Below, in pieces: positions 1,239-61,245 of a DNA stretch of 64,000 bases. Every line of letters begins with the position of its first letter. Positions within the stretch are counted from its first letter, which is position 1. The notes beneath the pieces were generated by a model. It made no database searches. It had not been told where the DNA came from and saw only the letters and a list, made by a program, of their open reading frames with translations. The translations under genes were made by a program, and so were the position numbers. The stretch is from Trifolium pratense (taxonomy: Eukaryota > Streptophyta > Magnoliopsida > Fabales > Fabaceae). The stretch is taken from positions 45,158,856 to 45,222,855 of the forward strand of contig NC_060063.1 of the NCBI RefSeq assembly GCF_020283565.1, in the 5' to 3' direction.

Positions 1239-3083
1239 CTCCCTCCGTCCCAAAAAGGATGACCCATTTGCAAAAAAAATTTGTCCCATAATACTTGAGC
1301 CATTTCAACTTTTTATATTATTTTTCCATTTTTACCCCTTATAAATGCTTTTGGAGAATCTACTTTTTGTAATCATTATTGGACAGAAAAGTGCCTTTGA
1401 GATCACAATTGTTGCTATCCATGCAAATAGTACACGTTTCTCTGCATCAAACCTTGGACGGGCTGTAGCGGCTAAGAACATAACTTTTCCAATAAAATTT
1501 TTACTTTTACAAGTGCGTAATGGATCTTCTTCATCTGGTAGCAAATAATAATTCTGGGACTTCTTTGTCATTTGAAACCATTTCTCATCTATATGAATGA
1601 TGTTATACATCCCTAAAAAAGTTGGATCATGAGGCAGCGAACTAGCATCAAGCATTGATATACAAAATTGCAATCGAGTTTTTTTGTTCTCTTCCCTTAA
1701 AAAAGGCTTCACGGCATTTGAATGCTTTCGTAAAACCCCCATCTTTAGATACCTATGCAAAGTGCTCTTACTCATATTCATTGCACTAGAAGTTGATCTA
1801 ATAGACGTCCTTTTACGCATAGGAATATCACGAAGTCGATTAAAATCAACTTGAATTCTCTTACGACCAACATTTTTAGTTAGTTTGTGGGAAACATCAA
1901 CATAGACACCAGAATTTCTTCCTTGTTTCCAAATACGCTGAATAGTGGATCTTGAAACTGAAAATTGTGATTTAACCATATCAATGGCCCCTCTTATAAG
2001 TCTTCCTTCAACACTCTTACCCAAAAGAGTATTATATATCGCCATTCTATCCTCATTACACAAACTTTTCTTTCTTGTTGGTGCCTGTGTTACTTGTGAA
2101 CTTGTAACATCATCGACACTATCTTCTTCTGCAAAAATGAAGTAAATTAATTGAATCAATAAACACATTCCAAAAATAAGTGTGTAGTAATACCATAGAA
2201 TTATTTTTATACATACCCAAATGTGAATCTGATGGATACATTATGTCTTCTAGCTCATCATCATTGAAGTCAAAAGATTGTGATGAAGAACGTGAATCTG
2301 ATGGATACTCACTGTTATTTGAATTTGATTGTTGCATTATGTCTCCTACTTGTTCATCATCTTCCATGACTGGCTCATCATTTAAGTCAAAAGGTAAACA
2401 ACCTCTTGATGAAGAACATTGAAGTATTGAAGTGGATGGACTTTGAATGAAACCAACATCTAACTCTTCTATATTAGCATTCAAATCTGGTATATAATAT
2501 TCTTGTCTTTCTTGATTGCCTTCATTAGAATTGATAATATTTTCATTTAAATCTATTTCTCTCATAGACATTTTCTAACTTTGTTTTGAATTAGTGTGTT
2601 ACCATTACTGATCATGTTTATATAGAATTAATTTGGTGGGAAATTTAAATTGACAATGAAAATTTGGCACAAGGAAAATGGCAGTTTACCAAAAGAAAAT
2701 TAAAATTTGGCATTTTGGTAAAATACAACAACCGTTCAGCTTGTTCTTTGCTTTGCAAAATCTTTCCACTACTCTATGTACTCTCCATTCTATATCCTCA
2801 TTAAATTCAATTGGTTGGAGTAGTAATACGTGATAGTAGCTTTTTGTATTGGTTGTAGATAATCCTGCTAAAGTTACTTTTCAGCAGCAAAAAGACAGCT
2901 TTTTATCAATGCTTTATTTTAACAAGAAAAACAATCATTCCTTTTTAAAATTGGATTTTAGTATAAAAATTAAATATAACAAGGGTAATTTGGTAAAACT
3001 AATATTATCTCTCATTCACTCCTACACTTTTCTTAATATGTGTGAAATGAGCAAATAGGTCATCCTTTTTGGGACGGAGGGAG
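1239..3083 (-). mobile_element. Tc1/mariner DNA transposon, internally deleted
   Basis: Terminal inverted repeats begin CTCCCTCCGTCCCAAAAAGG at 1239 and end with the complementary run at 3083, flanked by TA on both sides (1237-1238 and 3084-3085). This is the terminus and target site of plant mariner-like elements and their Stowaway derivatives. The element is about 1.85 kb, short of a full-length plant mariner, and its minus-strand transposase lacks the C-terminal half. It is therefore probably a non-autonomous deletion derivative that could only move in trans. Confidence 0.85.
1332..2571 (-). pseudogene. mariner-like transposase, C-terminally truncated
   Basis: The start is at 2571. A first exon to about 2215 joins a second exon from about 2130 (donor G|GTATGT, acceptor TTTTTGCAG|AAGAAG). 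The N-terminal part is acidic and Asn/Ser-rich and carries three DLN motifs, one an exact DLNxxP (DLNDEP). Next comes a helix-turn-helix DNA-binding region (near SRSTIQRIW and SKSTLHRYL) and the start of the DDE/D domain with the first catalytic Asp in HIDEKWF. After FLAATARPRFD the conserved sequence is lost, so the second and third catalytic acids are missing. The product could still bind DNA but not cut it. Confidence 0.8.
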
Positions 3084-8599: not shown

Positions 8600-9329
8600 C
8601 AATGTTGCACGGGTACTCCATTTTGGAGAGAGTATCGGTACCGGGTACGTACCGGGTACCGGTACGCGTATGGTACTCCCCAGGTACGCACCGACGTCGT
8701 ACCTAGTTTACGCGCGTGGTACACCAATCCAAAAAAAACACTTTTTTTTTCTTCTCCTTTTTTTCTTTTATTAGTATTTTTTATAGGAAGATTTAAGTTT
8801 TTTATTTGTTTATAATATAAAAGTAGTAACTACTACTAAAAAACAATAACAAAGTATCAACTATCTAGTTTTTATTCATAGCAATCTTCGTCTTCTCTCG
8901 AGAAAGAGAAATAGTAATACTTATAATGAAAGTGCAACAAAAATGTGGGATATTCGTAGAGATGCATGAAATTTATTTAATATATAGTTGATATTCTTGA
9001 AATTGCAAGTCTTTCTCGCGGTGAACGTAACTTGAGGTCGCTCTTTTTAGTGATGATGAAGAGGGAAATCATTAACTCTTTTTGAGCTAATTGCTTTTAA
9101 ATTTCATATTTTGATGTTTCGAACAATTTAAATTACTTTTAAAGTGTGATGTGATATTTTTATGTTTAATTATTTGTTTTAACGATATAATTCTATTATT
9201 TAATATATATAATTATATTTTAAAAAAAAATTAAGGACGTACCCGTACCTTAGTTTTTCAAAAAATGACGTACCTCGTACCGGTACCCATATCGGATACC
9301 GGTACCGTACCCGCACCCGGGCAACATAG
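8600..9329. mobile_element. non-autonomous hAT-type element
   Basis: An 8-bp duplication ATTAAAAG flanks the element (8592-8599 and 9330-9337). The termini are CAATGTTGCACGGGT and the inverse of CTATGTTGCCCGGGT, 13 of 15 matching. The subterminal regions are rich in GGTACC/GTACCGG words in inverted orientation. It has no transposase. The 8-bp duplication and CA...TG termini point to the hAT superfamily. Confidence 0.78.
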
Positions 9330-12372: not shown

Positions 12373-12699
12373 TCTAACTCTAGCCATCGCAACATTAATT
12401 AATATTAGTAACACTTACTCTAACCTCCACATTCCAAAAATAGATATTGACAAAGTTAGTTAAATCCGTTAAAAGAATTAAGAATGTATTTTGTTTAATT
12501 TGTCTTATATCTCTATATGTATCAATATATATGTCTTTGTCTCTCCTTCCATTTCTCTCCATCTCATCTTTTCATCCTTGAAATTAACAAAACTAAAACA
12601 GAGAAATTAAGGGAAGAGAAAATTAATCTCCTTCCTAACAACCACCTTCCCCTCCGGAAACGCACCAATTCCTCCTTTTTTTTCTGTTCCAAAAAAACC
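12373..12699 (+). promoter_or_regulatory. LBD gene upstream region and leader
   Basis: CT-rich leader with 'tctctccttccatttctctcc' immediately upstream, typical of plant 5' untranslated regions. In-frame codons extend back to 12517, but they encode low-complexity sequence unlike the LBD family, so they are treated as leader. Confidence 0.4.
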
Positions 12700-13765
12700 A
12701 TGAACAACATTAACATCAACAAAAACAACAACAACACAACTCAAGCTTGTGCTGCATGTAAATACCAACGTAGGAAATGTGCTCCTGATTGCATATTAGC
12801 ACCTTATTTTCCTCATGATCGTCAAAGACAATTCCTTAATGCACACAAATTATTTGGTGTTAGTAATATTAACAAAATCATTAAATATCTTGATCCTCCT
12901 CTAAAAGATCAAGCCATGAGAACAATCATTTATCAATCTGATATGCGGGCCAATGATCCTGTCGGCGGTTGTTATAAATATATTCAAGATCTTCAAGCTC
13001 AAATTGAATATTGTAAAATAGAACTTGATCTTGTTCTTCAACAACTCGCGGTTTATCGAGCACAACCTCATCAACAACAACCACAAGTGGTTAATTATGG
13101 TGATCAAGTTATTATGAATTCAGATTCATTGTTAGGTTTTTATAATCCATCTGGATCTGTTGTTCCGGCTACCGCGCCGGCTCATTATCATTACAATGTT
13201 CAACAACAAGTGGTTACACCATTACAAGAACATGAACAAGAACAATACCTTATGATGCATGAAAGTAATAGTAGTAGTATTAATAGTACTACTCCTTTGC
13301 AACAACATATTAATAATTGGGGGGCTATGCAAAATTCTATTTCTTTATCATCTTTGTCATTGCATGGACAAAGTAGTAATGCTAGTGATGAATATGATCA
13401 TAAGCCTACTCTTGATATACCTTGTGACGAAAGAAATGAATTAGGATTCGACTCCGGAGAAATACTTCACCACAGGTTTGTTTCTTTTATTTTATTTTTT
13501 TTAAGAACTTGTTTACAACATTTATCAGAAAAAGTTGCATTGCATTACCAACATAAATTAGTTGTCGAAGGAGATTAATTATAATAAATTATGATCAAGT
13601 TTTTGTCTTCATGATATTTGCAGTGATGAATCAGTTTTGTTTAAGATAGATGATGGATTAATTAAAGCAGAGGGTGGCTACATTCAAGAAACACAAGCTC
13701 AAGAACAAGATCATGATCTAAAAGGAGCAGCAACATTGTTTACTCTAACAAATTGTACTAGTTGA
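12700..13765 (+). CDS. LOB-domain (LBD/AS2-like) transcription factor
   Basis: Two exons, 12700-13475 and 13624-13765, give 305 residues. The LOB domain starts at residue 15 with the zinc-binding block C17-X2-C20-X6-C27-X3-C31 (CAACKYQRRKCAPDC). A GAS-like block follows (AHKLFGVSNINKII, Val for Ala in the GAS core), then the Gly-containing turn GGCYKYIQDLQ and a leucine-rich coiled region ending QLAVYR. The C-terminus is Gln/Asn/Ser-rich. LBD proteins are plant nuclear transcription factors that dimerise and control lateral-organ, root or pollen development. The wording KYQRRKC and HKLFGVSN is closest to the LBD22/LBD27 group, as far as memory allows. The first ATG matching the family is 12700. 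If the intron is retained the frame would end at 13578. Confidence 0.9.
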
Positions 13766-33600: not shown

Positions 33601-36600
33601 GTAATACACATGAAATTAAGATTACATAAGATATTAGAAATTCGGTGTCAAAAAAAAAAAAAAAGATATTAGAAATTATTGAACAAAACAACATAAGATG
33701 TATATTAGTATTAAAAAAACGAAAAACAATGCCTACTACGCACTTTATGTATACAATTGTTTTTTTTTTCTCTTTCTGTATATAAAATTTAACTCCAATA
33801 TGCTAATGCACTAATCCATATTTATTGTTCCACACTCAAAACACTGCAGGTTTTTTGTATGTACGTTATAGGGCATCTAGATTCGTTGTTCCCCAAAGAG
33901 TACCAGAAAGAGATTCTTCGTTACATATATTGTCACCAGGTATTGTTGTAAGTTCTACATTCAAATAAGATATGACTTGAAAATGATTTTATAAGTGGGA
34001 GACTTCCCCCACCTTATACCAAACTAATTTTCTAGGATTGAATTAGACTTGACTACATTTTAGGATGGTACTATTAGATTTATCCAAGATCAGTTTGACC
34101 ACCCACTATTAGACCAGTCAGGCCATGTTTTAGGATAAGAGGGTGACAGGGTGTCATAGGAAAAACCTAATTCCCACATCAAAAAGAGATTAGGTCTAAA
34201 AATAGTTTATAAAGAGTGGCAACCTCACCTTACATGCTGGTTTTGTAAGAATAATTTACATTCAATATACAAACCTAAGAGGGTGCGTATAAGAGTATCC
34301 ATTAGGCCGCCTGCTATTGGCCGCACTACATATGTCAAGTCTTGGGCATGAGTGAGTGTGTTGAGAGTCGCACATTGAATGCATTATGGCCCGGAAATGT
34401 ATTTGTTGATATTTAATATTATTGTAAATATATTCTAGAGTATTCTTAGCATAGCATATTCCATAGTAATATTCCCTTGTAATTAATGCTCTTAGTATTA
34501 TATAATGGAATGTCCGTGATGCTCAAATACACACGGTTTTCACCAATGCCTCTTGTGTTCTCTATTATTTTCTATTTCAATATGGTATCTAGAGCCTATT
34601 AAGAGGCAACCCTACACCGTGCTTAACCGGGGGACCCACTGTCCTCCGTTGAAATTTTTTTCCCGGCAAACTGTGTGTTACCACCAGTTTGTCCCTTATT
34701 TGCTGCCGTGATTATTCCGGCAATTTTTCAGTCAATTTTCATCCCCTCCCGCCACTGCCACCACAGCCGCCGCCCATTCCGACGACTTTTCCGGCAAACA
34801 ACCCCACCATCCGAATCGCAATCCCCGATCCGGCCTGTCCCCAAAACCGCGTCAGCAACCTCGCCGTCACGCGCTCACACGCGCCGTCTTTCTCACCGGC
34901 GCGTTCGCCCACGCGCCTCCGCCGTAACCGCGCGTCCGGCCGCCGTTCAGGCCGCCGTTTGGATCGCCGGACTCGTCTCTTCGTTCTGGTTCCATATCCG
35001 ATCTCAGTTTTCAGTTTCGATCGATCGAAATACGTGTTCCTTCACAAACAGCCCATATTTATACCGAAGTGCGTGGCGTTTACTGCTTCTGGATTACAAT
35101 GGCTGCTGATAAAACTTCTGATGGTTCCAAGAGTATTTTTACCAACTACGTTACATCTCCTCTCTCTACATAGAAACTGAACGGTTCAAATTACGATAGT
35201 TGGGCCGCCGATATCAAATTATGGGTTACTGGGCAAGGTTACAAGGACCATCTCACTACAAAGTCCGATTCGATTGCTACAACCGAGAAACCAAAATGGG
35301 AACAGATTGATGCTCAGTTGTGTAGTGTTATCAAATCGACACTTCACCCTGATATCAAACCGATCTTCCGTCCTCATATCACGTGTGAATCCGTTTGGAA
35401 TCAGGCTAAGAAACTTTACACTAATGACACTCAGCGTCTTTATGGAGTTTGTCACAAATTGATGAATATCATTACTTCGAAAAAGATAGAAGGCTCTATG
35501 TCGACATATCTTGGTAATGTTCATTCTGCACTTCATGATTTTAATGAGCTTCTCCCTCCTGCTGCAAGCACTACAACTGAACAGGAGAAGGAACGTGACC
35601 AACGTAGCACCTTCTTCATGCTCCTTGCCCTTTATGGCTTACCAGAAGAGTACTCTGCCATTCGTGATCAGATTTTGGGTTCTGCAACTGTTCCGGATAT
35701 GTCTACAGCAACTGCTATGCTTCTTCGAGTACCTGCCAAACATTCACTTGAGCCTACTATCACCCCTGCACCAGGTGATACTGCTGCCCTTGCATCATAT
35801 GGAAATAACAAGAATCGATACCGAGGAGGGCCATCCAATTATAAACCACGTTCCAATTCTAAGTGTACGCATTGTAACCAAACTGGACATGATATTGATG
35901 ATTGTTGGGTGTTGCATGGCAAACCTCCTCGACGTCGGGTTAATATGACTCACACTAATCAGTCTCGCATCATTCAGACCAAGCCTTCTTCCCAAGGCTC
36001 TACGGCAAGCTATGAAGATTTCCTCAGGTGGTGTCAGAGTAACCAGGACTCCGGTTCTACTGCTTCGGTTGCACACACTGGTAATTCATCTGTTTGCCTC
36101 TCTCAATCATCTCTCGGTCCTTGGGTTCTTGATTCTGGTGCGTCTGATCATGTTACCGGTAATAAAGGTCTTTTCTCTTCTCTCTCTACATCTGGTTTCT
36201 TACCCAGTATAACTTCTGCAAATGGTTCTCAAACTCAATCCCAAGGGATTGGTACTGTCCAAATTCTACCTTCAATTTCAGTTGACTCTGTTCTCTATGT
36301 ACCTGGTTGTCCATTTAATCTACTTTCAGTCAATCGTCTAACTCGTTCTCTTGATTGTATCGTTACTTTCACTAATAATAATGTTACCTTGCAGGATCGG
36401 AGTTCGGGACGAACGATTGGCGTCGGATGTGAGTCTCAAGGCCTTTACTACCTATCTTTGTCTTCCAAAACATGCTCCGCCACAGATTCCTCACTTACCA
36501 TTCATGCTCAGTTGGGACATCCAAGTCTTCCCAAACTTCAGAAGTTGGTGCCAAGTTTATCTAAGTTGTCTAGTTTACATTGTGAGTCATGTCAGTTAGG

Positions 36601-39600
36601 GAAACACACTCGTAGTAACTTTCCCGATCGAGTCAATAAACGGGCTTCGTCCCCTTTTGCTTTAGTTCACTCCGATGTTTGGGGTCCATCTCGTACCATG
36701 TCTACTTTACAATCAAAATATTTTGTTACTTTTATTGATGATTTTTCTCGTTGTACCTGGATATTTTTAATGAAAAATAGATCCGAGTTATTTTCTATCT
36801 TTGAGCAGTTTTATCAAGAAATCAAAACTCAATTTGGTGTGTCTATTCGTACTTTAAGAAGTGATAACGCTCGTGAATATTTGTCACATCAATTTCAAAA
36901 TTTTATGGTTTCAAATGGTATTCTCCACCAAACATCATGTCCTCATACACCTCAACAAAATGGGGTGGCAGAACGCAAAAATCGGCATCTCATTGAAACC
37001 ACACGGACCCTACTTCTTCATGGTAATGTTCCATTTCGCTTTTGGGGGGATGCTGTCTTAACGGCATGTTACCTCATAAATCGCATGCCATCTTCTGTCC
37101 TTGATGGCAATATCCCTCATTCTGTTCTTTTTCCCAATTCCCATCTTCACCCGCTGCCTCCTCGTGTCTTCGGGTCCACATGTTTTGTTCACAATCTCTC
37201 CCCTGGACTCGACAAACTGTCCGCCCGATCACTAAAGTGCGTCTTTCTTGGTTATCATCGGTCACAAAAAGGTTATCGTTGTTATTCTCCTACATTACAA
37301 CGATACCTCGTATCGGCCGATGTTACCTTCTTTGAGTCTGTCCCATACTTTGAGCCAAATACCATGACTCATGAACCCCTTCAAGAAATTAATCTTGAAC
37401 CCATCCAAGAAGTTACCATTGTTCCTCTTGAGCCTTGTCCATCTGTCCCACCAGATACACCTCTGGTTGACCCTCCAGCTTCGAAACCACTACAAACATA
37501 TCAGCGTCGTCCACGACCCTCTGTTGTACCTATTCCAGAGGCTGTTGAAGACTCACCGCCAACGCCATCGCCGTCACCGGATCCGGTCCCGCAACCTGAG
37601 CCTAGTCTGCCCCCTGTAATCCGTAAAGGTAATCGTTCAACACGTAACCCGTCTCCACACTATATAGATTTGTGTTACAGTCGTCTTTCCCCTTTACATT
37701 ACACTTGCTTGTCATCTTTGTCGTCTGTTTCTATTCCTAAATCCACAGGTGAAGCATTATCCCACCCTGAGTGGAGGCAAGCAATGATTGACGAGATGTG
37801 TGCTCTCCAAAGCAGTGGTACTTGGGAACTGGTTCCTCTACCCCCTGGAAAGTCTTTGGTAGGTTGTCGTTGGATATATACGGTGAAGGTTGGCCCGGAT
37901 GGTAAGATTGATCGATTTAAGGCTCGCTTAGTGGCCAAAGGCTATACTCAGATTTTTGGGTTGGATTATAGCGACACTTTTTCACCTGTAGCCAAAATGG
38001 CCTCAGTTAGACTTTTTCTCTCCATTGCAGCCATTCAGCATTGGCCTCTCCATCAGCTTGACATTAAAAATGCATTTTTACATGGCGATCTTGAAGAGGA
38101 AGTGTATATGGAGCAACCACCTGGGTTTGTTGCTCAGGGGGAGTCATCTAATATGGTTTGTAGGTTACACAGGTCTCTTTATGGTCTTAAACAGTCTCCT
38201 CGAGCTTGGTTTGGCAGATTCAGTACTGTAGTCCAACAATTTGGCATGATTCGTAGTGAAGCTGACCATTCTGTTTTTTATCGTCACTCTGTTGAAGGAT
38301 GCATTTATCTGATTGTTTATGTAGATGATATTGTCATAACTGGTAGTGATCAGCAGGGAATACTTCAGTTAAAACAATATCTCTCGAATCAGTTTCAGAC
38401 TAAAGACCTTGGTAAACTCCGGTATTTTTTGGGCATTGAGGTAGCTCAATCTAAGGATGGTATTGTGATCTCACAACGAAAATATGCTATGGATATCCTT
38501 GAAGAAACATGTTTATTGAATGCAAAGCCTGTTGATACTCCTATGGATCCAAATGTCAAGCTTCTACCTAATCAGGGGGAGCCTCTCTCAGATTCAGGGA
38601 GATATAGGAGATTGGTTGGAAAATTGAATTATCTCACAGTCACTCGTCCAGACATTTCATTTGCACTCAGTGTTGTAAGTCAGTTCTTAAATTCTCCTTG
38701 CCAAGAACACATGGATGCTGTAATCCGGATTCTGAAATACATCAAAGGTGCTCCAGGAAAAGGTCTCATTTATGAAGATAGAGGTCATACTCAGATAGTT
38801 GGTTACTCAGATGCTGATTGGGCAGGCTCACCCATTGATAGACGATCAACTTCTGGGTATTGTGTACTTGTTGGAGGAAACTTGATATCTTGGAAGAGTA
38901 AGAAACAAAATGTAGTAGCAAGATCAAGTGCCGAGGCAGAATATAGAGCCATGGCACTAGTAACATGTGAGCTGATTTGGTTGAAACAGTTACTCAAAGA
39001 ACTTCAATTTCAAAATGTTAGACCAATGACACTTATCTGTGATAATCAGGCTGCACTGCACATTGCCTCAAACCCAGTTTTTCATGAGAGGACCAAACAT
39101 ATTGAGATAGACTGTCATTTTGTCAGAGAGAAGATCGAATCAGGCGACATTGTCACGAGCTTTGTCAATTCTAATGATCAATTGGCAGATGTCTTTACAA
39201 AATCACTGCGAGGTCCTAGAATCAACTACATATGTGGCAAGCTTGGTGCATTTGACTTATATGCTCCAGCTTGAGGGGGAGTGTTGATATTTAATATTAT
39301 TGTAAATATATTCTAGAGTATTCTTAGCATAGCATATTCCATAGTAATATTCCCTTGTAATTAATGCTCTTAGTATTATATAATGGAATGTCCGTGATGC
39401 TCAAATACACACGGTTTTCACCAATGCCTCTTGTGTTCTCTATTATTTTCTATTTCAATAGTATTTATAACTGGGAACATTCCTCACCTTACAAATCGGT
39501 CTTGTAAGGTTGAGTGAGATCTGACCCAAATTTTAAGAGGTATACTTGTTCTATTTCAAAACTTGATTGAGCATGATGGAAACAACAAGAAAATTACAAT

Positions 39601-48665: not shown

Positions 48666-48997
48666 AATAATATGTTAAGGGTCTTGCTAACGAGTGCCCC
48701 CGGGTCACTTTTTAAGTATTCCATTAAAAGAAACTTTTTATTCAAAAAATAAAACACTCTAATTTCCAATGCGTTGACTTTACGCATTTTCATAAAAATT
48801 CTATAAAAAACTTACTATTTAAGGGCTTAAAGAGTGCCCGGGACATTATTTAGCATTTGGCATATGTTAAGGATAACTTATCGACAATCGGTCTCCTTTG
48901 AAAATAGCTATCACCTATAAACTATTGGTGGTGTGCTACATACATTCCTACCCTGAACGAGAAAAAAAAAACCCTAACCAAAATCCAAATCTCGACA

Positions 48998-49627
48998 ATG
49001 GTGGTGATGACGCGGAGCCGAAGTCGCATGATGGCGGAAGCAACGGCGGAGTCACTGACTACGATTCTACCGGAGGAAGTGATGATTGAAATCCTTAATA
49101 GGGTTGAATTGAACGATACTCTACAATTGAGGTGTGTTTGCAAATCATGGAAATCGCTGGTTCTTGATCCTCAATTCATGAAGAACCACCTTCACAAATT
49201 GCTCAATGATATCACCGTTCAATTTTCTAAGGCCAAGGAATTCTTCAACGCTTTCAAATCGCAGCATCGTATAAATAACCCGGTCATGCCTCAAGAACAA
49301 GTAGACGATGACGAAGACGGTGAAGAAGCAGCACAAGAAGATGCTGCTGCTGTTGACAATGTTGCCGCTGAAGATGAAGAAAAAGAAGAGAAAAAAGAAG
49401 AAGAAGAAGCTGAGAAACATTGTTTGGTGACTGCACTTGCTGTGTTGGATGGTATTTTGGTAGATGTTCTTTCTCTCAAAGGGGATTTGAAATTTATCAA
49501 CCTTGAGACGCAAATGCAACCTGTTGAGGATAGATTGAAGTGTCTCCGAAGCTTTATGCGAATTTATCTCAAGTCAGAAACATCTTCATCTTCTTCTGAT
49601 TACTCTCTTTTGAAATGTTGCAACTGA
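48998..49627 (+). CDS. short F-box protein with acidic domain
   Basis: Single exon, 209 residues. Residues about 20-65 form an F-box (ILPEEVMIEILNRVELNDTL, then RCVCKSWKSLVLDPQF), which binds SKP1 and recruits a substrate to an SCF ubiquitin ligase. Residues about 100-145 are a strongly acidic Asp/Glu-Ala-Lys tract. The rest (TALAVLDGILVDVLSLKGDL) is probably helical. No kelch, FBA or LRR substrate domain is present, although most plant F-box proteins are about twice this length. It may be a truncated or legume-specific member. Four in-frame ATGs (48998, 49007, 49028, 49031) precede the F-box, and the first is used. The gene is flanked by transposon remnants. Confidence 0.8.
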   Translation: MVVMTRSRSRMMAEATAESLTTILPEEVMIEILNRVELNDTLQLRCVCKSWKSLVLDPQFMKNHLHKLLNDITVQFSKAKEFFNAFKSQHRINNPVMPQEQVDDDEDGEEAAQEDAAAVDNVAAEDEEKEEKKEEEEAEKHCLVTALAVLDGILVDVLSLKGDLKFINLETQMQPVEDRLKCLRSFMRIYLKSETSSSSSDYSLLKCCN

Positions 49628-51853: not shown

Positions 51854-51862
51854 CTATTTTAT

Positions 51863-51923
51863 GATATTTTCTCTCCCCACCCCCCACGTTTCTTTTATAC
51901 CCCCCTTAAATCCCAGTTTGCCC
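51863..51923. repeat. MULE left terminal inverted repeat
   Basis: 61 bp. Differs from the right repeat mainly at CCCCA versus TTAGG after the first 12 bases, and near the inner end. Confidence 0.9.
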
Positions 51924-51939
51924 TTCGAAAATGACCACT

Positions 51940-52425
51940 TTTTTGGTTAGCAAATTCGGGTTTTACGAATCGAAAAAATAAAAACTTCGGTTTTTAAAAA
52001 CCACTCGCTTTATACTTCGAGTTTTACGAATCGAAGTATGTTTATATAGAAAGCAACCTCTCACATTCTTCATCACTTTCAATACTTCATCCCCACACTA
52101 CCAAAAGAGATCCCAAAATCCAATCCGTTTTTCACTCAAATCGCTGCTTAAAATCAAGTTTGGAACGTTTGCTAAGGGTTGGAAGGCGATTTGAAGCACA
52201 ATATTAAGGTAATCTTCCGTTTAATTTCTTTTATTTTCAACTGTCATACATGTTAGGTTGGTAGGTTTCTGACACAAAATCGTTCGATTTATAGAAATCG
52301 AAGGAATCCTTCGGTTATTACGAATCGAAGTGACTGGAACTTTTGGTTTTGTGTTGGTTTAAACGTGTTTGCTTGCCAAGCCTAACCGAAGGATTCTTTC
52401 GGTTGATACTAACCGAAATAACTGG
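51940..52425 (+). promoter_or_regulatory. MULE left subterminal region: repeated CGAATCGAA / TTCGGTT words, TATA box and leader intron
   Basis: ACGAATCGAA or close variants occur near 51,955, 52,024 and 52,318; TTCGGTT or AACCGAA near 51,985, 52,308, 52,384, 52,397 and 52,410. A matching cluster sits inside the right end (60,340-60,437). TTTATATAG near 52,029 is a plausible TATA box. A leader intron from 52209 (AAG|GTAATC) to 52580 (TTATGTAG) would place the transposase ATG two bases into the next exon. The repeated words may be transposase-binding sites. Confidence 0.5.
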
Positions 52426-52582
52426 AACTTTAATTTTTGCAATGTGTAATTATTTGCCTTGACTGTCTGTTTTGCTTGCATTGCCTTAGCTGTTATGGAT
52501 TATAGAATGTGCTACCAATTTTATATGTATTAAGTATTATATGTGGCTAATTATGTGTTTATCCCTCTTATATTATGTAGTT

Positions 52583-55507
52583 ATGGCGGGCAAACGAGAG
52601 CTTGTGCTAGGTATCTGTGCCCCGGGAATTGTTGAGGTTCCGCCTGATAAACCTCCATCTAGACCTGTTGCATATGAGATTGATACATCAGATCATTTTT
52701 ACACTGAAATGGCAACCCCTGACCGAGATGAGTTGATTAGATGGGCTCGGGAGATTGCCTTAAAGCTAAAGTTTGCAATTGTAATTGGCAAATCCGACAA
52801 CGGCAGCGATAAGAGGAAGCAATATTTCAGGTTGGATTGCGAGCGGGGAGGCCGGTACGTGTCAACAAATAAGAAGCTAAAATCTGATCAAACCGGCACG
52901 AGGAAATGCGGCTGTCCATTTCGACTCCGTGGTTATTGTCATGCCGATAAAACATGGCATTTGACCGTTGTAAATGGCAAACATAACCACGAGTTGGACA
53001 AGGCAGTTGAAGGCCATCTCATTGTCGGTCGTCTCAAACCGGAAGAAAGGCAATGTATGGAGGAAATGTCAAGGAATTTGGTTCCGCCTAAGAATATAAT
53101 GTCCACATTGAAAGATAGGGATCCAAACAACAAGACAACGGCAAAGCAACTCTACAATTTAAGTCATCGATTAAAACTTAAAATGAGGGCATCAATGACT
53201 GAAATGCAACACCTCTCCAAAAGACTTGTCGAGACCGGGTATTTTTTCAAACATAGGACGGTTGTTGCAGACGGATCCGAACACGTTCAAGACATTTTCT
53301 TTGCACATCCTAAATCTATAAGTTTGTTCAATTCTTTTCCTACTGTGCTTTTGATGGATTCGACATACAAAACAAACAAATACAAAATGCCGTTATTTGA
53401 GATTGTCGGATTCACATCAACTGGGAGATCTTTCAATGTTGGATTTGCTTGGCTTACCAATGAAAGAGAAGACAACTTCACTTGGGCTCTAGAGCAGTGT
53501 GTCAGTCTCTTAAGGAATGAGGATGTTAGACCGAAGGTGATTGTCACCGATAGGGATTTGGCTCTGATGAATGCAGTTTCCGAGGTATTTCCAACATCGG
53601 CTGCAATGGTTTGTCGTTTCCATGTAAAAAAGAACGTGAGCTCTAAGATGAAGGAAATTGTGAAAATCAAGAATGGAGAGAATGAGAAGCAGACTGATGT
53701 GTGGGATCAAATCACCGATGCTTTTAATGATGTGTTAGAGTCGCCAACGGAAAAAGAATATGCTGACAATGTTATGGTGTTTAGGGAGCTCTGTGCGAGA
53801 TGGCCAAAGTTTTTGCGTTATGTTGAAGAGACTGTCCTAGACACTGATAAAGAAAGGGTTGTCAATGCTTGGGTAGACCAACATATGCACATGGGGAATC
53901 ACACCACGAATAGAGCTGAATCATGTCATGGTGTGTTGAAAGGTTACTTGAAGGACGGTAACGGTGACTTGGTGAAAGGATGGGAAGCGATAAATAAGAT
54001 GTTGATAAGTCAGTTCACTGAAGTACAAGGTGAATTCGGTCGGAGTATGTCTGTTGCGGAACACAGATACGATGATGATCCTCTTTACGCATTCTTGTTT
54101 TATAAAATCTCAAGAAAGGCTATGGATCACATTTATGACGAAGCAAACAGGGTCGAAGAATGTGGTATGGATAGCAAAAAGTGTGGCTGTGTTATGAGAA
54201 GGACATACGGGTTGCCATGTGCATGCTTGATTGCGAAGAAGATAAAAAATAACAAACCTATCCGACTGGATGAGATTCACCCTCAATGGAAGAAACTGTG
54301 TTTCGAAGATGAGCCGGCACCGGGCGACGTGGCTGACGATTATGATTGCTTGGCTGAGTGGAAAGCAATTCAGGTTATTACACATTCATAAATATAATGG
54401 TTACATTTCGTATACCTTTTTATTATGATTTTAATTTCACATTATGTGTATAATGTTACACTTTGTATACAATTAATTTTAATGAGTTTGATTTTTTTTC
54501 TTTCTTTGTAGGAACGATTAAAAACAGCCGATGTTAGCGTGAAGAATGATATTAGGAATCAACTTCGTCTCATTGCATATCCAGAAACCACCTCTGTGAA
54601 ACCTCCGCTTCAAAAGGCCAAAACAAAAGGTGCTAGAAAGAAAAAATCAGTTCGTGTCACAAGATCCACGAGCAGGGATAAGTCTCGGTGGGAGCATGTT
54701 GATGATCATATTGCAGCTACACAGGCATCTCAGTCGCAAGCAACAAAGTCAAAGCCGTCGACTTCACAAACAGTGCCTGAGGTGCCTAAAGAACTCGTCA
54801 TCCGTACTTTGACTCCAGCACCTCCAGCACCTCCTGAAATTCCTTTTATCAACCATATGCCGAAGTTCATGCACCCATTTATTGAAGATATTATTGACGT
54901 TCAAGGTGACGGTTATTGTGGATACCGTGTGGTAGCTTTGCACCAAAAAGGAAATCAACAAGATTATGAGTTGATCAGACTGAACATGGAGAGGGAGCTG
55001 AGATTGCATAAGGAATCATATGTGGAGTTGTTCGATACTGAGCGTTACAAGTATGTCACGGATGCACTTTTCCCACCACCGAGAAGGAGTAAACATGCTA
55101 TTGCAACCAAGGACAAATGGTTTACTTTTCCGGATATGGGTTACGTTGTGGCTACTCATTTTCAGAGGGTTGTTGTTCAACTATCAAATATGGAAAAGTG
55201 TGGAGCATCTAGAACTTGTTTCCCATTGCGTGGCAAACCTCCATCAGACACGTCAGACTTGGATTCCAAGATTATTTGCATCGGCGCGCTCGCTGACCAC
55301 TTTGTGTTAGTGCGATTGAAAGTAGGATGTCCGATACCTCCAACGGCTCATCAGTGGAAAAACTCTTGTTCCGAAGAAGCTGCAGATTGGGAGCCCATGT
55401 TTTTGGATAGAATGCAAAAGTTTGGTGAGCTGTTGACCATTGAAAGAGCAGGCGATGACTTAGTCACGATTGGAAAGGGTAGCAAAGACGATCCGTTGGA
55501 ATTGTAG
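52583..55507 (+). CDS. MULE transposase (FAR1/WRKY-GCM1 finger, DDE, SWIM) fused to OTU-like cysteine protease
   Basis: Two exons, 52583-54373 and 54512-55507, phase 0, 928 residues. Order: FAR1-type zinc region (RKCGCPFRLRG ... GKHNHEL, about 108-145); MULE transposase core with acidic residues in LLMDSTYKTN (about 257) and VIVTDRDLAL (about 322) and NRAESCHGVLK; SWIM finger CGCVMRRTYGLPCAC (about 533-547). A basic Ser/Pro linker follows, then an OTU domain with DVQGDGYCGYR (about 724-734, nucleophile Cys in GYCGY) and the C-terminal His in ALADHFVLVRL (about 857). The first part cuts and joins DNA ends. OTU domains are usually deubiquitinases. The CAG|GTTATT donor could be read through, ending at 54391 to give a transposase without OTU. 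Start 52583 follows a probable leader-intron acceptor. An upstream in-frame ATG at 52541 lies within that intron. Confidence 0.85.
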
Positions 55508-55532
55508 TAGATTTTAGTAGTTTCATTTTGAA

Positions 55533-55612
55533 TTAGCTAAGCGCATTATTTTTTGAAATGGTAGCTAAGCGCACTATTTTTTGAAAGGGTAGCTAAGCGC
55601 ATTATTTTGTGA
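55533..55612. repeat. tandem repeat, 33-35 bp unit, three copies
   Basis: 'tagctaagcgcattatttt' phrases repeated three times just after the transposase stop codon. Possibly a 3' untranslated or terminator region. Confidence 0.75.
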
Positions 55613-55924
55613 TGTATACCATGCCGATTATGCTTTGTAACATATTAACTTTGTATGCGCAATTTACACATGAACCTTGGTTATGAAATGTGGTATTATT
55701 GTATATTGAACTTTGGTATTATTGTTATGAAATATGATTATGAAACTTTGGTTATGAAATGTTGTAACAAATTGTATTTAGCCTGATAGAATTTTGGAAA
55801 TGAATTGAAAGAAAAAACAGGTTTTGACCTCGACGATTTTGGAAATTTAAATTTTGCGAAGGGGGTATAAGAGACTTGATGGGGGGGATTGAAGAAAGGT
55901 AGGTATTATGTGAAAAATGATCGA

Positions 55925-56055
55925 AATTGCACCGACAAGTTTTTGTGGTCGATATTGTACCGACAATATTTTGTGGTCGATATTGCACCGACAATATTTT
56001 CGTGGTCGATATTCGTGGTCGATATTCGTGGTCAATATTGCACCGACAATATATG
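55925..56055. repeat. tandem repeat around 'gtggtcgatattgcaccgac'
   Basis: Four to five imperfect copies of a 30-36 bp unit, with a short 'gtggtcgatattc' triplication inside. It lies directly upstream of the first small gene's TATA box. Confidence 0.75.
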
Positions 56056-56079
56056 TGGATATTATTGATTTCTATGTAC

Positions 56080-56087
56080 TATAAATA
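56080..56087 (+). promoter_or_regulatory. TATA box of MULE small gene 1
   Basis: TATAAATA, 45 bp before the ATG at 56132, directly downstream of the tandem repeat array. Confidence 0.6.
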
Positions 56088-56131
56088 CGTATAGGGAGAG
56101 TTAGAAAATAATTTAAATCGTTTTCTACAAA

Positions 56132-56497
56132 ATGAGTACTTCAAAACGTTTTGTTAAAAACAATTTAGCGACTTCTTATCCATTTTCAATCAAGTTTCGC
56201 GGTAACGACGAGTTGTTCTGCGTTGATTTGAAAAACACTTTAACAACTCTTCAAACTATCAAAAATACGATTGAAGCCATGTATCGCTTCAAATACGCTA
56301 GACAAATCAAAATAGACAATCTAGCGTATTATGAGTCATATATCGATCTGGCAGCTGACCATGTTGGAGGATATGATGATGCACCACGGAAATACGAATG
56401 GAAAGAGTTGAAAGATGATGAAGATGTGAGAAAAATGTTCGACTGGATTGAAATTGATCCGAAATATCCACGTTTGTATGCTACCTTATGTTGTTGA
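56132..56497 (+). CDS. MULE small protein 1, uncharacterised, beta-grasp/PB1-like
   Basis: 121 residues, single exon, own TATA box. Not recognised as a named family. N-terminal half: a strand-like PFSIKFRGNDELFCVDL followed by an amphipathic stretch with two LxxL-like steps (LTTLQTIKNTI). C-terminal half: RKYEWKELKDDEDVRKMF, then PRLYATLCC. The 'W-x-x-L-x-D-D-x-D-V-x-x-M-F ... L-Y-A-T' pattern resembles the small N-terminal domain that heads many MuDR-type transposases, which this element's transposase lacks. The same pattern recurs in small protein 2, so the two are probably paralogues. The function is unknown. Confidence 0.65.
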   Translation: MSTSKRFVKNNLATSYPFSIKFRGNDELFCVDLKNTLTTLQTIKNTIEAMYRFKYARQIKIDNLAYYESYIDLAADHVGGYDDAPRKYEWKELKDDEDVRKMFDWIEIDPKYPRLYATLCC

Positions 56498-56633
56498 TTT
56501 TCCGTTTATGTTGTTGATTTTCCGTTTATGTTGTTGTTGAATTTTATATTATGTTACGTAATTTTCAGTTAATGAATGTTTGAATTAACAATGTAAGTTG
56601 TAAGTTTTTTAATTAATCAATATGTGCAACAAT

Positions 56634-56729
56634 AACCATCACATACCATTTAAACTTCACCTACCACATTAACCATCACCTACCACATTAACCATCACCT
56701 ACCACAATAACCATCACCTACCACAATAA
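56634..56729. repeat. tandem repeat, about 20-bp unit 'aaccatcacctaccacatt'
   Basis: Four to five near-identical copies immediately upstream of the second small gene's promoter. A separate 22-bp duplication ('ttgttgattttccgtttatg') lies at about 56,492-56,535, after small gene 1. Confidence 0.8.
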
Positions 56730-56746
56730 TGTGCAACAATATGATC

Positions 56747-56753
56747 TATAAAT
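56747..56753 (+). promoter_or_regulatory. TATA box of MULE small gene 2
   Basis: TATAAAT, 47 bp before the ATG at 56800, an almost identical layout to small gene 1. Confidence 0.55.
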
Positions 56754-56799
56754 TAATGTACATTACCACATCTTTTTTCAACACTCAACTCACAAAAAA

Positions 56800-57192
56800 A
56801 TGGATGTCTCACTCACACAACGCATGAGATCTACCCTTGCAGCAGTTTACTTCAACCACGAAAAACCAATTTTGTTTCGCATTAACGATGGTGAAACGTT
56901 CGATGGTCTGAAACAACAACTGAACGAGCTGAATCGTACCACCAACAACCAGAACGATAACAGAACAGTTTCGAGTCTCAAGTACCGTAAACCGTCGATC
57001 GGTCCCGACGGACGCATTTCCTTCACCGATATGATGCTTGAAAACAATGATGATATTGAAACTATGTTCTCAATTTTCGAGCAGTATAGCAACAGGGGGC
57101 CTATCGAATTAGATGCAACGCTGACAAGATCTGTCGAAGCCATCCTTGCTAGCCTTGTTCGTCCGGAAGATCGAAATCATGTTTCCATTTGA
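56800..57192 (+). CDS. MULE small protein 2, uncharacterised, beta-grasp/PB1-like
   Basis: 130 residues, single exon. It reads PILFRINDGETFDGLKQQL, then a polar Asn-rich loop, SSLKYRKPSIGPDGRISFTDM, then LENNDDIETMFSIFE and IELDATL. It aligns by eye with small protein 1 at three points: FRxNDxExF, the DD-x(0-1)-[DV/IE]-xx-MF block and L-[YD]-ATL. It has no catalytic motif, signal peptide or membrane segment. The position between transposase and PMD gene, the separate promoter and the intact frame suggest that it is expressed. The function is unknown. A protein-interaction or transposase-partner role is a guess. Confidence 0.65.
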   Translation: MDVSLTQRMRSTLAAVYFNHEKPILFRINDGETFDGLKQQLNELNRTTNNQNDNRTVSSLKYRKPSIGPDGRISFTDMMLENNDDIETMFSIFEQYSNRGPIELDATLTRSVEAILASLVRPEDRNHVSI

Positions 57193-57661
57193 TGCGTTGT
57201 AACAATTTCATTCCGATGTAATTCCTAATTTCCGTTTATTGTGTTTGATTTGTCTAATATCGAGTTAAATCGAAACAACTTTAATATCGAGTTAAATCCT
57301 ACCTTACTGGGAATTTAAACAATTTCGGTCCGTATAAACCGAAGTATATCAGGCCAAAAAACCAGTCAATGTGAGTCTTTGCCTTGCACAACCTCTACAC
57401 ATTTGAGGTCCAAACCTGTTTATAACACATTTTAGTATGTTATATATGACAGAGCATCAACATATTAACCATCCAATCTAAAAATATTTTAGCGATTAAT
57501 AAAAAACGTAACAACCGGTAACAAATTACGAATTAAACGATACTAAAATACGTAGTGTACTACATCCGATTGTCATAATCAAAGTTACATCAAAAATAAA
57601 AACAAACATCAGAGTTTATAAACAACCACGTCAACATTAAAGTTACAAAAACAAACAAAGT
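57193..57661. other. MULE spacer between convergent gene ends
   Basis: AT-rich, with one AACCGAAG/TTCGGTCC pair near 57,320-57,345. It contains the 3' flanks of small gene 2 (+) and of the PMD gene (-). No further frame is seen. Confidence 0.5.
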
Positions 57662-59820
57662 CTACCCCCGAGTGTGGTAGCGTGTCCCCTTCCCCCGCTT
57701 AATTCGCCTATAAGCAAGTATCGGATTAAGCAAATTCAGAATCCGCTGCAAAGTACCATGAATTGGAGTTCCTTCAACCGCCTCACCATCGCGAACTGCC
57801 CTTTCGACCTCAACCTTTACACTCCGGCAAACTTGCATTAGATTAGGGTCATTTCTTGCTTCCGCCGCCTCTATTAACACCTCTAAATTAGGTGGCCTTG
57901 GTGGTGATTCAGGAGCTTCTACGGGTCGCATAACTGGATGCGACACTCTATAAAACCATGACATATATCCGGGTTCAGTGTCCCACGGGCTTGTAACAGG
58001 CCGACCCCTCATCTCTTCATCTATCATTCTCAGCTCCAATTCTTCCGTAAACACACGATCTATCTCACACAAGTTCATCCCCGGCGTTGCAGACATACTC
58101 GGGTTTCTTGGAATGCCTTGCACATGTTGAAATTGTCTTAGCACACGTTCCGGCAAATGCTTGGCTTTCAATTTACCACACCTTAACCATCCAGAAAACC
58201 AACATGCATTTATCAAAGGTCGCACTTGTCGGTGGGCATCATACGGGCTGAACACGCAATCGTAAGTTTGAATATTGTCCAAACTGCTTCTATATCCAGC
58301 TGCATCCTTATGTCCTTGCCCAGGAACAACCTTTGAATTTAGTGGCATGTTCGCTGTATATCTAGGAGCCTCCACCCACACACTAAGTCTCGGAAAGTGC
58401 GCAATAATCCATCCCTGAAAGTATGACGAACAAGATTCATTATAGCCAAACATAGTCTATGTGACAAATTAGACAAATACAAATAATATCTTATATAACG
58501 CTCAGATATTTTTACCTGAAGAAATGACATGTAGCCAGCCATCTGAGTCGTGCTAACCGCAGATCCGTGATCCAAATAATGCTGCAGATGAACAAGAGCA
58601 GCAGCACCCCAATTCCATTCATGAACGCATGACAAATCTTGAAAGTACTGCAAATACACAACATCCGCGTAGTAACTGCTCTTGTTGCTGAATATTGTAC
58701 AACAGACCAAATGTAGCATAAAAGCCCTTACGCTCCTCTCCCTGTAAAGCCTAACAACATGCGCCGGCTTATTTTCAGCAATCGCTCTTTCAGCAGACGT
58801 CTGGTTTGTTGTGTATAGAGTTTGCAGGGTAGTATGCTTCAAATGTACCCCGTTGGTTTCGGCAAATGCTTTATCAATATCCTCTCGCTCAACTCCTAGA
58901 TATGAACTAACCATGTCAGCCCCTTCTCCCCTTGACATCTTCGTATGGTTCAAAAACTTTCCTTGGATTGGAAGATGTAACAAACATTGTACATCGTCCA
59001 ATGTGATGCCGAGCTCACCTAACGGAAGGTGGAAAGTACTTGTTTCCGGATGCCATCTTTCAACAAATGCCCATATAACCCCATAGTCAAGTACGCTAAA
59101 ATTGACACGGGTAAGCGGCTCCAATCCCGATGCTTCTATTGGATCCCAAAACCACCTCTCACTACGAGGCGGTTTGACGATGTCCATAACCTTTTTCCCG
59201 CTAGCTTGGCAACGCAGAGTCCTCTTTAAAACCTGAAAAATTACAACAACACAAAACATTGAAAACTTAATTAACATAATCACAGTATTTAAAACAATTA
59301 ATACATTTAATAAAACAATTAATACACTTAACGGTACCTCGTGATCATCTGGTTCTGCATCCCATATCGGAACCGCCCTATGATTTCCGTATTGTGTTAA
59401 TAATGACATATCACTTGGTCCTCCTCCATAACCCTCATTTGCTGCATCTCGTCGTGGTTGCCGTGGTCGCTGTTGCGGTCTCCGTCGTGGTGGTTGTTGC
59501 GGTTCTTCAATTTGCGGTTCATCAGGTTGCAGTTCATCAGGTTGCGGTTCTTCAGGTTCGCCATACTCGGCATCCTGATTTAGAAATTGATCCGCGTCAA
59601 AATCATCATCCTCAGCAGCATTTTGTGCTTGGCCTAAACGTGACCGTGTACGCGTACGCGAACCACCCGCCTCAGCATCATGTGTCCCTCGCGCGGGAAT
59701 TGGTCCTTGCTGCTTACTACGACCTCGTTTGGCAGGGCGATTTGCAGCAAGCTCTCTACGAGCGGAAGCATTTGCATTGCTTGGCTTGCCATGCCTACCT
59801 CTCCCAACATTTTCTTCCAT
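57662..59820 (-). CDS. plant-mobile-domain (PMD) protein carried by the MULE
   Basis: Three exons from high to low: 59820-59338, 59232-58516 and 58414-57662, all phase 0, 650 residues. The N-terminus is basic (RPAKRGRSKQQGP), then acidic and Glu/Pro/Gln-rich (EEPQPDELQPDEP), then Arg/Pro-rich (PPRRRPQQRPRQPRR), and is likely disordered and nuclear. The PMD ('aminotransferase-like, plant mobile domain') covers about 185-500: LLHLPIQGKFLNH after LPLGELGITLDDVQCLL, VVYLQYFQDLS, WNWGAAALVHLQHYL, MAGYMSFLQGWIIAHFPRL. The C-terminal region is helical and charged. PMDs occur in cellular MAIN/MAIL1 proteins, which act in gene silencing and transposon control, and in transposons. Here it is transcribed inward from the right end, opposite the transposase. 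Start 59820 is the first ATG of the conserved frame; an upstream one exists at 59856. Confidence 0.85.
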
Positions 59821-60442
59821 ATTTATCCTAACATGGTAAAATATCGTCAAACTCAATACAATCTTATAAACTATGATAAATTCAAACTATAATTCAATCA
59901 ACGTTTAATGCTAACACCTATGGAAACATTATTCGTATGGAAACACATTTAATTTGACTTAGACATTTTGTCGAACACGTAGTGTAGACCATAATACCAA
60001 CTAATCACATACACAAATTGAACCTAATATCACATGCATTCATGTTAACATCTAACTAAACTAACAACTAATCATTAATTCAACAATTCAAACATAGAAT
60101 TTTGAGATAGAAAATTACTCAGAGAGGGAAAAAAACGTAGAAAAGAGTGAATGTGATAAGAAAAACATGGAATGAGAAAAGAGTGAATGTAAATGCATGG
60201 AACTTACTTGATTAAGAATGGTTTGAGATAGGATGTTGAAGTTTTCCACAAAATCGCTCTCAAGAAGAAGAAGGAGTGGTGTTGTTGGTGTTTAGAAGAA
60301 AATACGTAACTGAGAGGTTATGAAATGCTTCTGTTTCTATATCAGTTAACTTCGGTTGACAAAACTCGAAGTTAAACGCGATCGATTTCTATTAACCGAA
60401 TTGTTTTAAAGTTCGATTCGTATAACCCGAAACACCGTGCAG
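59821..60442 (-). promoter_or_regulatory. MULE right subterminal region: PMD promoter and repeated motifs
   Basis: Contains the PMD leader and a cluster of AACTTCGGTT, ACTCGAAG, TTAACCGAA, GTTCGATTCG and AACCCGAA words at 60,340-60,437, matching the motif set at the left end. A CT/GA-rich leader at 60,100-60,260 suggests transcription starts near 60,300. Confidence 0.45.
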
Positions 60443-60503
60443 GGGCAAAAACGTAAGTAAGGGGGGTATAAAAGAAACGTGGGGGGCCTAAAGAGAAAAT
60501 ATC
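60443..60503. repeat. MULE right terminal inverted repeat
   Basis: Inverse of the left repeat, ending GAGAAAATATC at 60503 immediately before target duplication CTATTTTAT. Confidence 0.9.
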
Positions 60504-61245
60504 CTATTTTATTAACTGAATATCAATGTGAATGTTAGGAAACCCTAGCCTCCGTTTGTCTCATCTATTTGTATTCCTCTTTTGTTCTGCGGTTTTGGTG
60601 AGCCATTACCACCTTTTACAAGTGGTGCATGTCTATCAATGAAGACTTGCTTTGCTGTTTTCCCATCCTTATTATAACGTTCATAGAAATTAGGCGGCAT
60701 GAAGTTCTTAACATGCTGAAAAACACAAACATTATGCGCAGGGCCGGTCCAAGCAAATTTGGAGGCCCGTTGTAATTTTAAAAGTATACCCTTAATAAAA
60801 GTTCATTTTAAAAAAAAATCAATATTTTTAAAAATTATAAATATATAAGTGAATATACAAGGACTATGTAAAATATATATATTTTGTAATGTTTAGTGCA
60901 TTTGTTACAACTTACAAGTGAGAGACTGCAGGTCATCATGCGTTGAACTCTCTCTAATTCATTGTTATTTTATTTTTCAAAACAACATAAAAAAGTTCAC
61001 ATAAACAGGATTTTATAGAGTGACCTTGAGGTTCATAAAAACGCACGGTTGACTACACCACTTGGCCAATCCCAATTTATGTTTTAAAATGACATTAGAA
61101 AATATATAATATCGAAGTTTGTAAATTTGGCCCAAAAAATTGGACAAATAGGCCCCCAAAAATTTGAGGCCCAGCTCCATAGCACATCCTGCACTTGGTC
61201 TGTGTCGGCCCTGATTATGAGTAACTTGAATTATTTACTTTACCA

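Follow-up and report, generated by a model that had tools for sequence, protein, structure and literature searches.

The stretch of Trifolium pratense (red clover) DNA that we analysed, called the window from here on (64,000 nucleotides; contig NC_060063.1, positions 45,158,856 to 45,222,855), carries at its positions 51863-60503 an autonomous and recently amplified Mutator-like element (MULE) of this species, which we label family 1. There is hardly any room for doubt that this 8641-bp element is an intact, mobile, multi-gene MULE: it shows the hallmarks of the class, namely a 9-bp target site duplication, a MULE transposase domain and terminal inverted repeats, and all four of its genes are open, those for the transposase (with an OTU-like tail) and for a PMD protein requiring splicing. 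These two genes converge from opposite ends, with the small genes s1 and s2 between them, and we hold with high confidence that the accessory set of s1, s2 and PMD is a conserved component of the element and not a load of passengers. Pack-MULEs are defined by captured fragments and the lack of a transposase; this element holds an intact transposase and so is not one of them. Its parts are the following.

51854-51862 and 60504-60512, no strand: 9-bp target site duplication CTATTTTAT, 9/9 match, directly outside the element
51863..51923, plus strand: left terminal inverted repeat, 61 bp, beginning GATATTTTCTCT, 50/61 identical to the right end
51955..52417, no strand: five palindromes TTCGRTT-N6-AAYCGAA in the left subterminal region and 5' leader (starts 51955, 52016, 52283, 52310, 52398)
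52583..54373, plus strand: transposase exon 1, FAR1/AFT-type DNA-binding region and MULE transposase domain (gene model, Pfam)
54374..54511, plus strand: intron of 138 bp, GT-AG, linking transposase and OTU-like part (gene model)
54512..55507, plus strand: transposase exon 2, linker and OTU-like cysteine-protease region (gene model)
54908 (Asp), 54917 (Cys) and 55298 (His), plus strand: candidate catalytic codons of the OTU-like region (alignment)
55861..55897, plus strand: block GGGGGTATAARAGA...GGGGGG, similar to the right end and situated after the transposase gene and before s1, borderline in family 1
56132..56497, plus strand: small gene s1, 121 amino acids, predicted to be PB1-like through homology to s2 (hhalign)
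56800..57192, plus strand: small gene s2, 130 amino acids, predicted PB1-like fold (structure model)
57324..57343, no strand: one palindrome in the gap where s2 and PMD converge, in which the other seven complete copies have three
57662..58414, minus strand: PMD exon 3 (gene model)
58516..59232, minus strand: PMD exon 2 (gene model)
59338..59820, minus strand: PMD exon 1 (gene model)
60351..60431, no strand: three palindromes in the right subterminal region and PMD leader (starts 60351, 60381, 60412)
60443..60503, minus strand: right terminal inverted repeat, 61 bp, 50/61 identity with the left end

The inverted ends, the perfect duplication and the four open genes had already been described in a first-pass annotation made from the letters of the window, and all are confirmed. 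The next-best place in the window for the left 61-mer, in reverse orientation, has only 32 of 61 matches, and a second inverted pair of 98 nucleotides lies inside the ends (51955-52052 and 60334-60431, 73% complementary). Between 51000 and 61500 nothing matched in Rfam at gathering thresholds, and scans of viral contigs did not confirm relatives of the element.

Copies and relatives in the red clover genome

A search of the 413.6-Mb assembly with the left 118 bp of the element, in which 40 of 550 candidates were scored, found at least 40 matches, some of them partial. The window copy and the 20 best of the remaining matches were read, 21 out of 40 in all, and the sample leans to young copies for that reason. 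Every gene and both ends are present, in the same order, in eight of the 21 (the window copy, L010, L011, L018, L019, L023, L026 and L027), the seven others being 8888-9261 bp long; the remaining 13 miss at least one part or have no right end within 10 kb. Six of the eight complete copies are free of stops and frameshifts in the exons tested, the other two being L023, whose transposase is frameshifted, and L026, in which PMD exon 2 contains a stop. The right end could be located in 16 of the 21 copies, and 15 of these are flanked by perfect 9-bp duplications, all different, the exception being L016 (1/9 match); there are also internally deleted copies with a perfect duplication, such as L012 (2007 bp). 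In L017, another family-1 copy, the sequence departs from the element beyond 4472. We considered it as an element ending near the internal block listed above: its 9-mer recurs at 5700, and the sequence there is no MULE end, for which reason L017 is treated as truncated (or rearranged) and left out of the right-end count. The recent activity and intact frames proposed at first pass agree well with the perfect, distinct duplications and the complete copies, and the same duplications, together with the conserved order, rule out a chance neighbourhood or nesting of the genes.

The association of the accessory genes extends beyond these copies. At least 46 places with PMD exon 3 were listed in the genome (those seen through exons 1 or 2 only are left out), of which 41 have s1 within 8 kb upstream on the opposite strand, 37 have s1 and s2, and five have neither, so that the co-occurrence in constant order is supported here as well as by the eight complete copies. 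The s1 gene has 117 places in the genome, fragments included, and 106 of them contain no stop. A copy of s2 lies within 8 kb downstream, on the same strand, at 18 of the 24 places where s1 is at least 90% identical, at 30 of 43 with 65-75% identity, at 3 of 14 with 50-64% and at 4 of 36 below 50%; distant s2 genes may be under-counted because the query was the family-2 protein. The s1 relatives below 50% (32/36 without in-frame stop) probably belong to further MULE families. Among four listed transposase-OTU genes of T. subterraneum, two have PMD at the neighbouring locus tag, the contigs of the paired genes being equally long (75450/75440 and 366080/366090), and the T. repens gene model P0014 fuses an apparent transposase-OTU linker to the tail of s2.

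Families 1-5 are labels of this analysis, families 3 and 4 standing for one locus each and family 5 for two copies. Family 2 is 65% identical to the window element in the transposase, 52% in the OTU-like region, 71% in s1 and 82% in s2; the copy followed to its end measures 13,077 bp, has the target duplication TCTTGATAA and contains two PMD genes, one P0024-like (64% identical to the window PMD) and the other P0054-like (37%). At the family-3 and family-4 loci, transposase-OTU is followed by s1 and antisense PMD, as in family 1, and tblastn found no s2 at either; the family-3 locus has inverted repeats of 98% identity (977-1126 and 8837-8986), and a target duplication was not found there. In family 5 it is a MURA-type transposase (PF03108, PF10551 and SWIM) that is accompanied by s1, s2 and PMD, the genes being enclosed by inverted repeats. 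These measure 326 bp (100% identical) in the first copy and 239 bp (95%) in the second; if the termini are set no more than one base away from them, the target duplication matches at 9/9 positions in one of the copies and at 8/9 in the other. The first copy is

L036+L037, 3254-11901 (C1:24740254-24748901): family-5 copy with 326-bp repeats, 100% identical

and appears to be very young because of that identity. Since family 5 carries s1, s2 and PMD, two unlike types of MULE share the accessory set. The view that the window element is a distinct MULE architecture is supported. What is not supported in the form first given is that its four genes make up one co-adapted unit: their number is not fixed, for s2 is missing at two loci and family 2 has two PMD genes, and co-adaptation with this transposase is not demonstrated when the same set accompanies an unrelated one.

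Palindromes, PMD and a possible anti-silencing role

Palindromes of the form TTCGRTT-N6-AAYCGAA are found nine times in the window with up to one mismatch, always within the element, and not once in 30 Markov shuffles of the element, a test that is partly circular because the pattern was derived from the window copy. Allowing two mismatches adds one site outside the element, and at three mismatches the element contains 12 sites and the rest of the window 11. Each of the seven other complete copies carries 14 palindromes, as against nine in the window copy (up to two mismatches). The 14 are gathered in four clusters, one at either end, one in the OTU-s1 gap and one in the s2-PMD gap, and the stretch from s1 to s2 has none. 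A wider pattern, TTCGG-N10-CCGAA, has 11, 43, 10 and 21 sites in families 1-4, respectively, counted in one element or locus each, the family-2 count including tandem duplications and families 3 and 4 giving no flank control because the whole 10-kb locus was scanned without placing the ends. Only one of these 85 sites falls in coding sequence, PMD introns being counted as coding, and the other 84 lie outside; long arrays of them occupy internal non-coding DNA in families 2 and 4. Motif arrays in non-coding DNA, as in VANDAL elements, are hence present in four families, and the family-5 copy that was scanned has no site of this pattern. The inner left dinucleotide is TT at 7 of 11 sites in family 1 (P0021-type PMD), AA at 7 of 10 in family 3, TA at 17 and TT at 14 of 43 in family 2 (both PMD lineages), and CA at 9, TA at 4, GT at 4 and TT at 3 of 21 in family 4 (P0054-type PMD); this is suggestive of inner bases that lean by family, with overlap.

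The PMD protein has 650 amino acids, is encoded antisense to the transposase with two introns, and matches PF10536 with E 1.2e-40 (140.2 bits against a cut-off of 34.9). The public predicted protein P0021 equals it in length and is 100% identical over the part searched, in agreement with the gene model, and the public proteins with 98-100% identity to element proteins are annotated in Trifolium pratense. The presence of PMD in MULEs is previously known and not new (PMC5418596, PMC6446971; publications are cited here by identifier and for the available part of their text), often in antisense orientation. Dupeyron et al. (PMC6446971) list antisense PMD in several plant MULE groups, among them MUDR, MDR, MUDRAVI2 and Solanaceae_1, besides a group 42 with 'unknown ORF and PMD', and Ikeda et al. 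(PMC5418596) suggested that MULE-captured PMD is possibly anti-silencing. PMD also exists in host genes, including Arabidopsis MAIN and MAIL1 (PMC5418596). The MULE-borne PMD of rice, grasses and Amborella resembles the present one in lying inside a MULE, often antisense to the transposase (PMC6446971, PMC5418596); the grass and Amborella forms differ in being described as fused to the transposase (PMC5418596). By term count, the available text of these two papers does not mention OTU, nor that of PMC6446971 PB1. Likewise, the open-access literature searched, as far as its text was available, did not describe TTCGG palindromes or small PB1 proteins in association with PMD-bearing MULEs, or any MULE transposase ending in an OTU tail.

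The closest parallel in layout is found in the Arabidopsis elements VANDAL21/Hiun and VANDAL6 (with VANA, VANB and VANC), which are three-gene MULEs with extra genes beside the transposase and have family-specific short motifs that recur in their non-coding DNA, frequently as tandem arrays (PMC5735166, PMC10398659). There, VANC provides a sequence-specific escape from silencing by a plant transposon (PMC5735166, PMC10398659). The red clover element differs in its FAR1/AFT-type transposase with OTU-like tail, in a PMD without DUF1985, in a 20-bp palindrome instead of the 9-base VANC21 motif, and in PB1 proteins, which the available text on VANDALs does not mention (PMC5735166, PMC10398659). It resembles the VANDAL/VANC layout, yet it is no VANDAL by the DUF1985 test. 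Kaonashi (KIU) MULEs similarly combine a cysteine-protease domain with extra genes (PMC13317346), the protease there being Ulp1 in a VANC-like gene, whereas in red clover it is OTU-like and fused to the transposase; Pfam lists Ulp1 for none of the four window proteins up to E 1.

Maize MuDR has two gene sets converging from its ends, a 9-bp duplication and a helper gene, features shared by the red clover element, which differs in its short imperfect ends and in its type of transposase. The mudrA and mudrB genes of MuDR appear in PMC9168764 beside barley Abermu, a MULE with three open reading frames, the third reversed, and recent transpositions. Abermu belongs to a grass family and has a MURA-like transposase and a second reading frame without assigned function, and the available text of PMC9168764 does not name PMD or OTU (term count).

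How, then, might the parts of the red clover element work together? In the explanation that we favour, the FAR1-type transposase would cut and paste the element, and PMD, with the PB1-like s1 (and s2 where present) as assembly adaptors, would form an element-encoded anti-silencing complex; this complex would be recruited through the palindromes to the element's own non-coding DNA and hold its promoters open, which is the job of VANC in VANDAL elements, and the OTU-like tail might trim ubiquitin off the transposase or nearby chromatin. Taken as a whole, this explanation is plausible at somewhat less than even confidence, and the particular step of anti-silencing through the palindromes may be given slightly less. 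Several observations weigh against it. The window PMD matches PF10536 alone in Pfam and not DUF1985, a VANC domain that the family-5 PMD matches under the cut-off; MAIN and MAIL1 promote silencing (PMC5418596), the opposite of what is proposed; s2 is missing at the loci of families 3 and 4; in the window copy the OTU-s1 gap lacks palindromes and the s2-PMD gap holds a single one; the wider pattern was written after inspecting families 2-4; and the presence of palindromes follows the OTU-type transposase no less closely than it follows PMD, because family 5 has PMD and no palindromes. They could equally be transposase sites.

The latter possibility leads to the strongest competitor, which we consider tenable, if clearly short of probable: the palindromes would be binding sites of the transposase, and the accessory proteins helpers of transposition like MURB of maize MuDR, with PB1 proteins building the synaptic complex and PMD taking part in DNA processing or target choice, and no anti-silencing at all. 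Both ends, to which a transposase has to bind, do have clusters of palindromes, the MURA-type copies carry the same accessory genes and no palindromes, and PB1-like domains already occur in some MULE transposases, as in the N-terminus of the family-5 MURA protein, which is related to s2, and in MUGB genes (PMC3435246). On the other side, palindromes also fill the OTU-s1 and s2-PMD gaps, where a transposase would have no evident need of them; deleted copies such as L012 do not prove these internal sites dispensable because the deletions may postdate insertion.

Selection and the history of the two halves

Between families 1 and 2 the ratio of nonsynonymous to synonymous divergence (dN/dS) is 0.135 for the transposase, 0.208 for the OTU-like region, 0.285 for s1, 0.187 for s2, and 0.252 and 0.188 for PMD exons 2 and 3; comparison across families thus shows purifying selection on the genes tested. 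The corresponding ratio within family 1 (pN/pS; 21 or 28 pairs) is 0.12 for the transposase, 0.35 for s1, and 0.16 and 0 for PMD. The values of 1.08 for OTU and 1.29 for s2, based on few changes, show no silent excess and speak against our explanation, as does the synonymous divergence, by which the parts may not share one history: dS between families 1 and 2 is 1.80 for the transposase and 1.62 for OTU, and 0.61-0.80 for s1, s2 and PMD. Between families 1 and 3 it is 2.9 for the transposase (near saturation), 2.8 for OTU, 0.67 for s1 and 1.4-1.8 for PMD. Small trees of six transposases and 14 PMD proteins add to the contrast, since family 2 joins T. subterraneum in the former (0.98) and its P0024-type PMD joins family 1 in the latter (0.998), a disagreement that likewise gives no support to co-adaptation with this transposase. 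The conflict of trees and dS indicates either that families exchanged the right half or that rates differ from gene to gene, and the data do not decide.

In evolutionary terms, these contrasts raise the question of whether two MULEs merged long ago to give the present element. In such a composite, a 4-kb transposase-OTU element whose end lay near 55900, at the internal block, would have fused with a cargo element bearing s1, s2 and PMD, and families would later have swapped this cargo half. The right-end-like block stands indeed between the halves, with a score of 37 in family 2 against a shuffle maximum of 30 (200 shuffles) and, at the same place in family 1, a borderline score of 25 against a maximum of 26 (200 shuffles), and the unequal synonymous divergence and the conflicting trees would fit such a history. 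But the block is not found at the loci of families 3 and 4, which keep transposase-OTU, s1 and PMD, the same dS contrast recurs between families 1 and 3 and would also be expected from gene-specific rates, and not one of the 21 copies that were read stops at the block and shows a target duplication there. We therefore regard a composite origin as doubtful; it is compatible with the explanation favoured above, which it could fit as the origin of the element.

The transposase tail and the small proteins

The spliced transposase-OTU protein has 928 amino acids, a model with which the public predicted protein P0015 agrees, being equally long and 98% identical over the part searched. Pfam finds in it the MULE domain PF10551 (E 1.1e-28, covering profile positions 1-99 of 99), AFT (E 2.8e-9) and, under its cut-off, FAR1 (E 1.2e-4). 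The first-pass claim of a transposase-OTU fusion stands as far as a single spliced gene is concerned; its OTU part stands on a motif and weak profile evidence, since Pfam gives no OTU match, and the tail is likely an OTU domain by these sequence criteria. D133, C136 and H263 of the OTU-like region, which we take to be the Asp/Cys/His set expected of OTU proteases, are invariant in seven aligned rows, the same three being found in four families, and the best matches of a PDB profile search are the OTU deubiquitinases OTUD5 (E 0.052) and VCPIP1 (E 0.54), aligned on the Asp/Cys motif. These same results argue against the idea, which we find improbable, that the tail is an unrelated C-terminal domain of the transposase with a chance Gly-Asp-Gly-x-Cys motif and no OTU-family protease. 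That idea draws on the lack of a significant match to the Pfam OTU profile PF02338 in nine sequences (best E 0.16, in one sequence), an empty phmmer search of the region against PDB, a match of the same stretch to the unrelated enzyme agmatine deiminase (PDB profile search, E 0.51), and an AlphaFold (AF2) model with a confidence score (pLDDT) of 37.8, too poor to judge the fold. A role in protein modification, as initially asserted, depends on this weak call and is not supported in that form. Up to E 1, Pfam shows no SWIM zinc finger (PF04434) in the window transposase; this finger, common in MULEs, is missing from some of their groups (PMC6446971, available table). The public names of P0015, P0018 and P0023, 'PKS-NRPS hybrid synthetase cheA-like' and 'IMP dehydrogenase/GMP reductase related', look like misannotations of transposon proteins.

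That PMD, s1 and s2 are useless passengers, captured in the manner of Pack-MULEs, is very unlikely: MULEs often capture host genes, PMD is known in host genes and s2 is missing from two loci, but order and orientation are conserved in copies from four OTU-type families, the between-family dN/dS of all three genes is well below 1, 106 of 117 s1 places are stop-free, and the set recurs with a second type of transposase.

For s2, to which the public protein P0001 is 99% identical, the structure model (pLDDT 65) has PB1 domains (beta-grasp fold) as its top structural matches, and s2 thus models as a PB1 domain protein, new for PMD-bearing MULEs. The prediction that s1 is PB1-like follows from its hhalign comparison with s2 (probability 93%, E 3.4e-7). 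The N-terminus of the family-5 MURA-type transposase is also homologous to s2 (hhalign probability 98.4%, E 8.3e-15), s1 alone matching it weakly (20.8%). Pfam gives nothing of weight for s1 or s2 and does not list PB1 (PF00564) for s2 up to E 1, and the PDB profile search with s2 returned three weak matches, PB1 not among them. Tandem repeats of 28 bp (TCGATATTGCACCGACAA..., 55921-56049) lie directly upstream of s1, and others of 19 bp (56629-56729) upstream of s2; they are unlike the TTCGG palindrome and are possible promoter repeats.

Elsewhere in the window there are an F-box protein gene (48908-49627, E 7.3e-11) about 2 kb away from the MULE insertion, a LOB-domain transcription factor gene (12499-13578, E 9.1e-36), a nearly complete Ty1/copia polyprotein (35174-39274) in a single open frame of 1366 amino acids, with RVT_2 (E 3e-73), integrase and gag pre-integrase domains, and a Mariner/Tc1-like transposase fragment (1332-2240, minus strand) with DUF7769 (E 2.6e-17) and HTH_Tnp_Tc3_2.

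A broader possibility, which we regard as speculative and rather unlikely in its entirety, is that legume MULEs carry a transferable anti-silencing cassette of PMD and PB1 adaptors, reading co-evolving, family-specific palindromes, that has moved between FAR1/OTU- and MURA-type MULEs, PMD being the link between VANC and MAIN/MAIL1. The stand-alone PB1-like proteins, homologous to the MURA-type N-terminus, suggest that complexes are assembled through PB1 contacts in these elements. The conservation of PMD with intact transposases, together with palindromes that lean by family, makes the role of transposon-borne PMD directly testable, and with it the relation of silencing proteins of the MAIN/MAIL1 type to the PMD of transposons.

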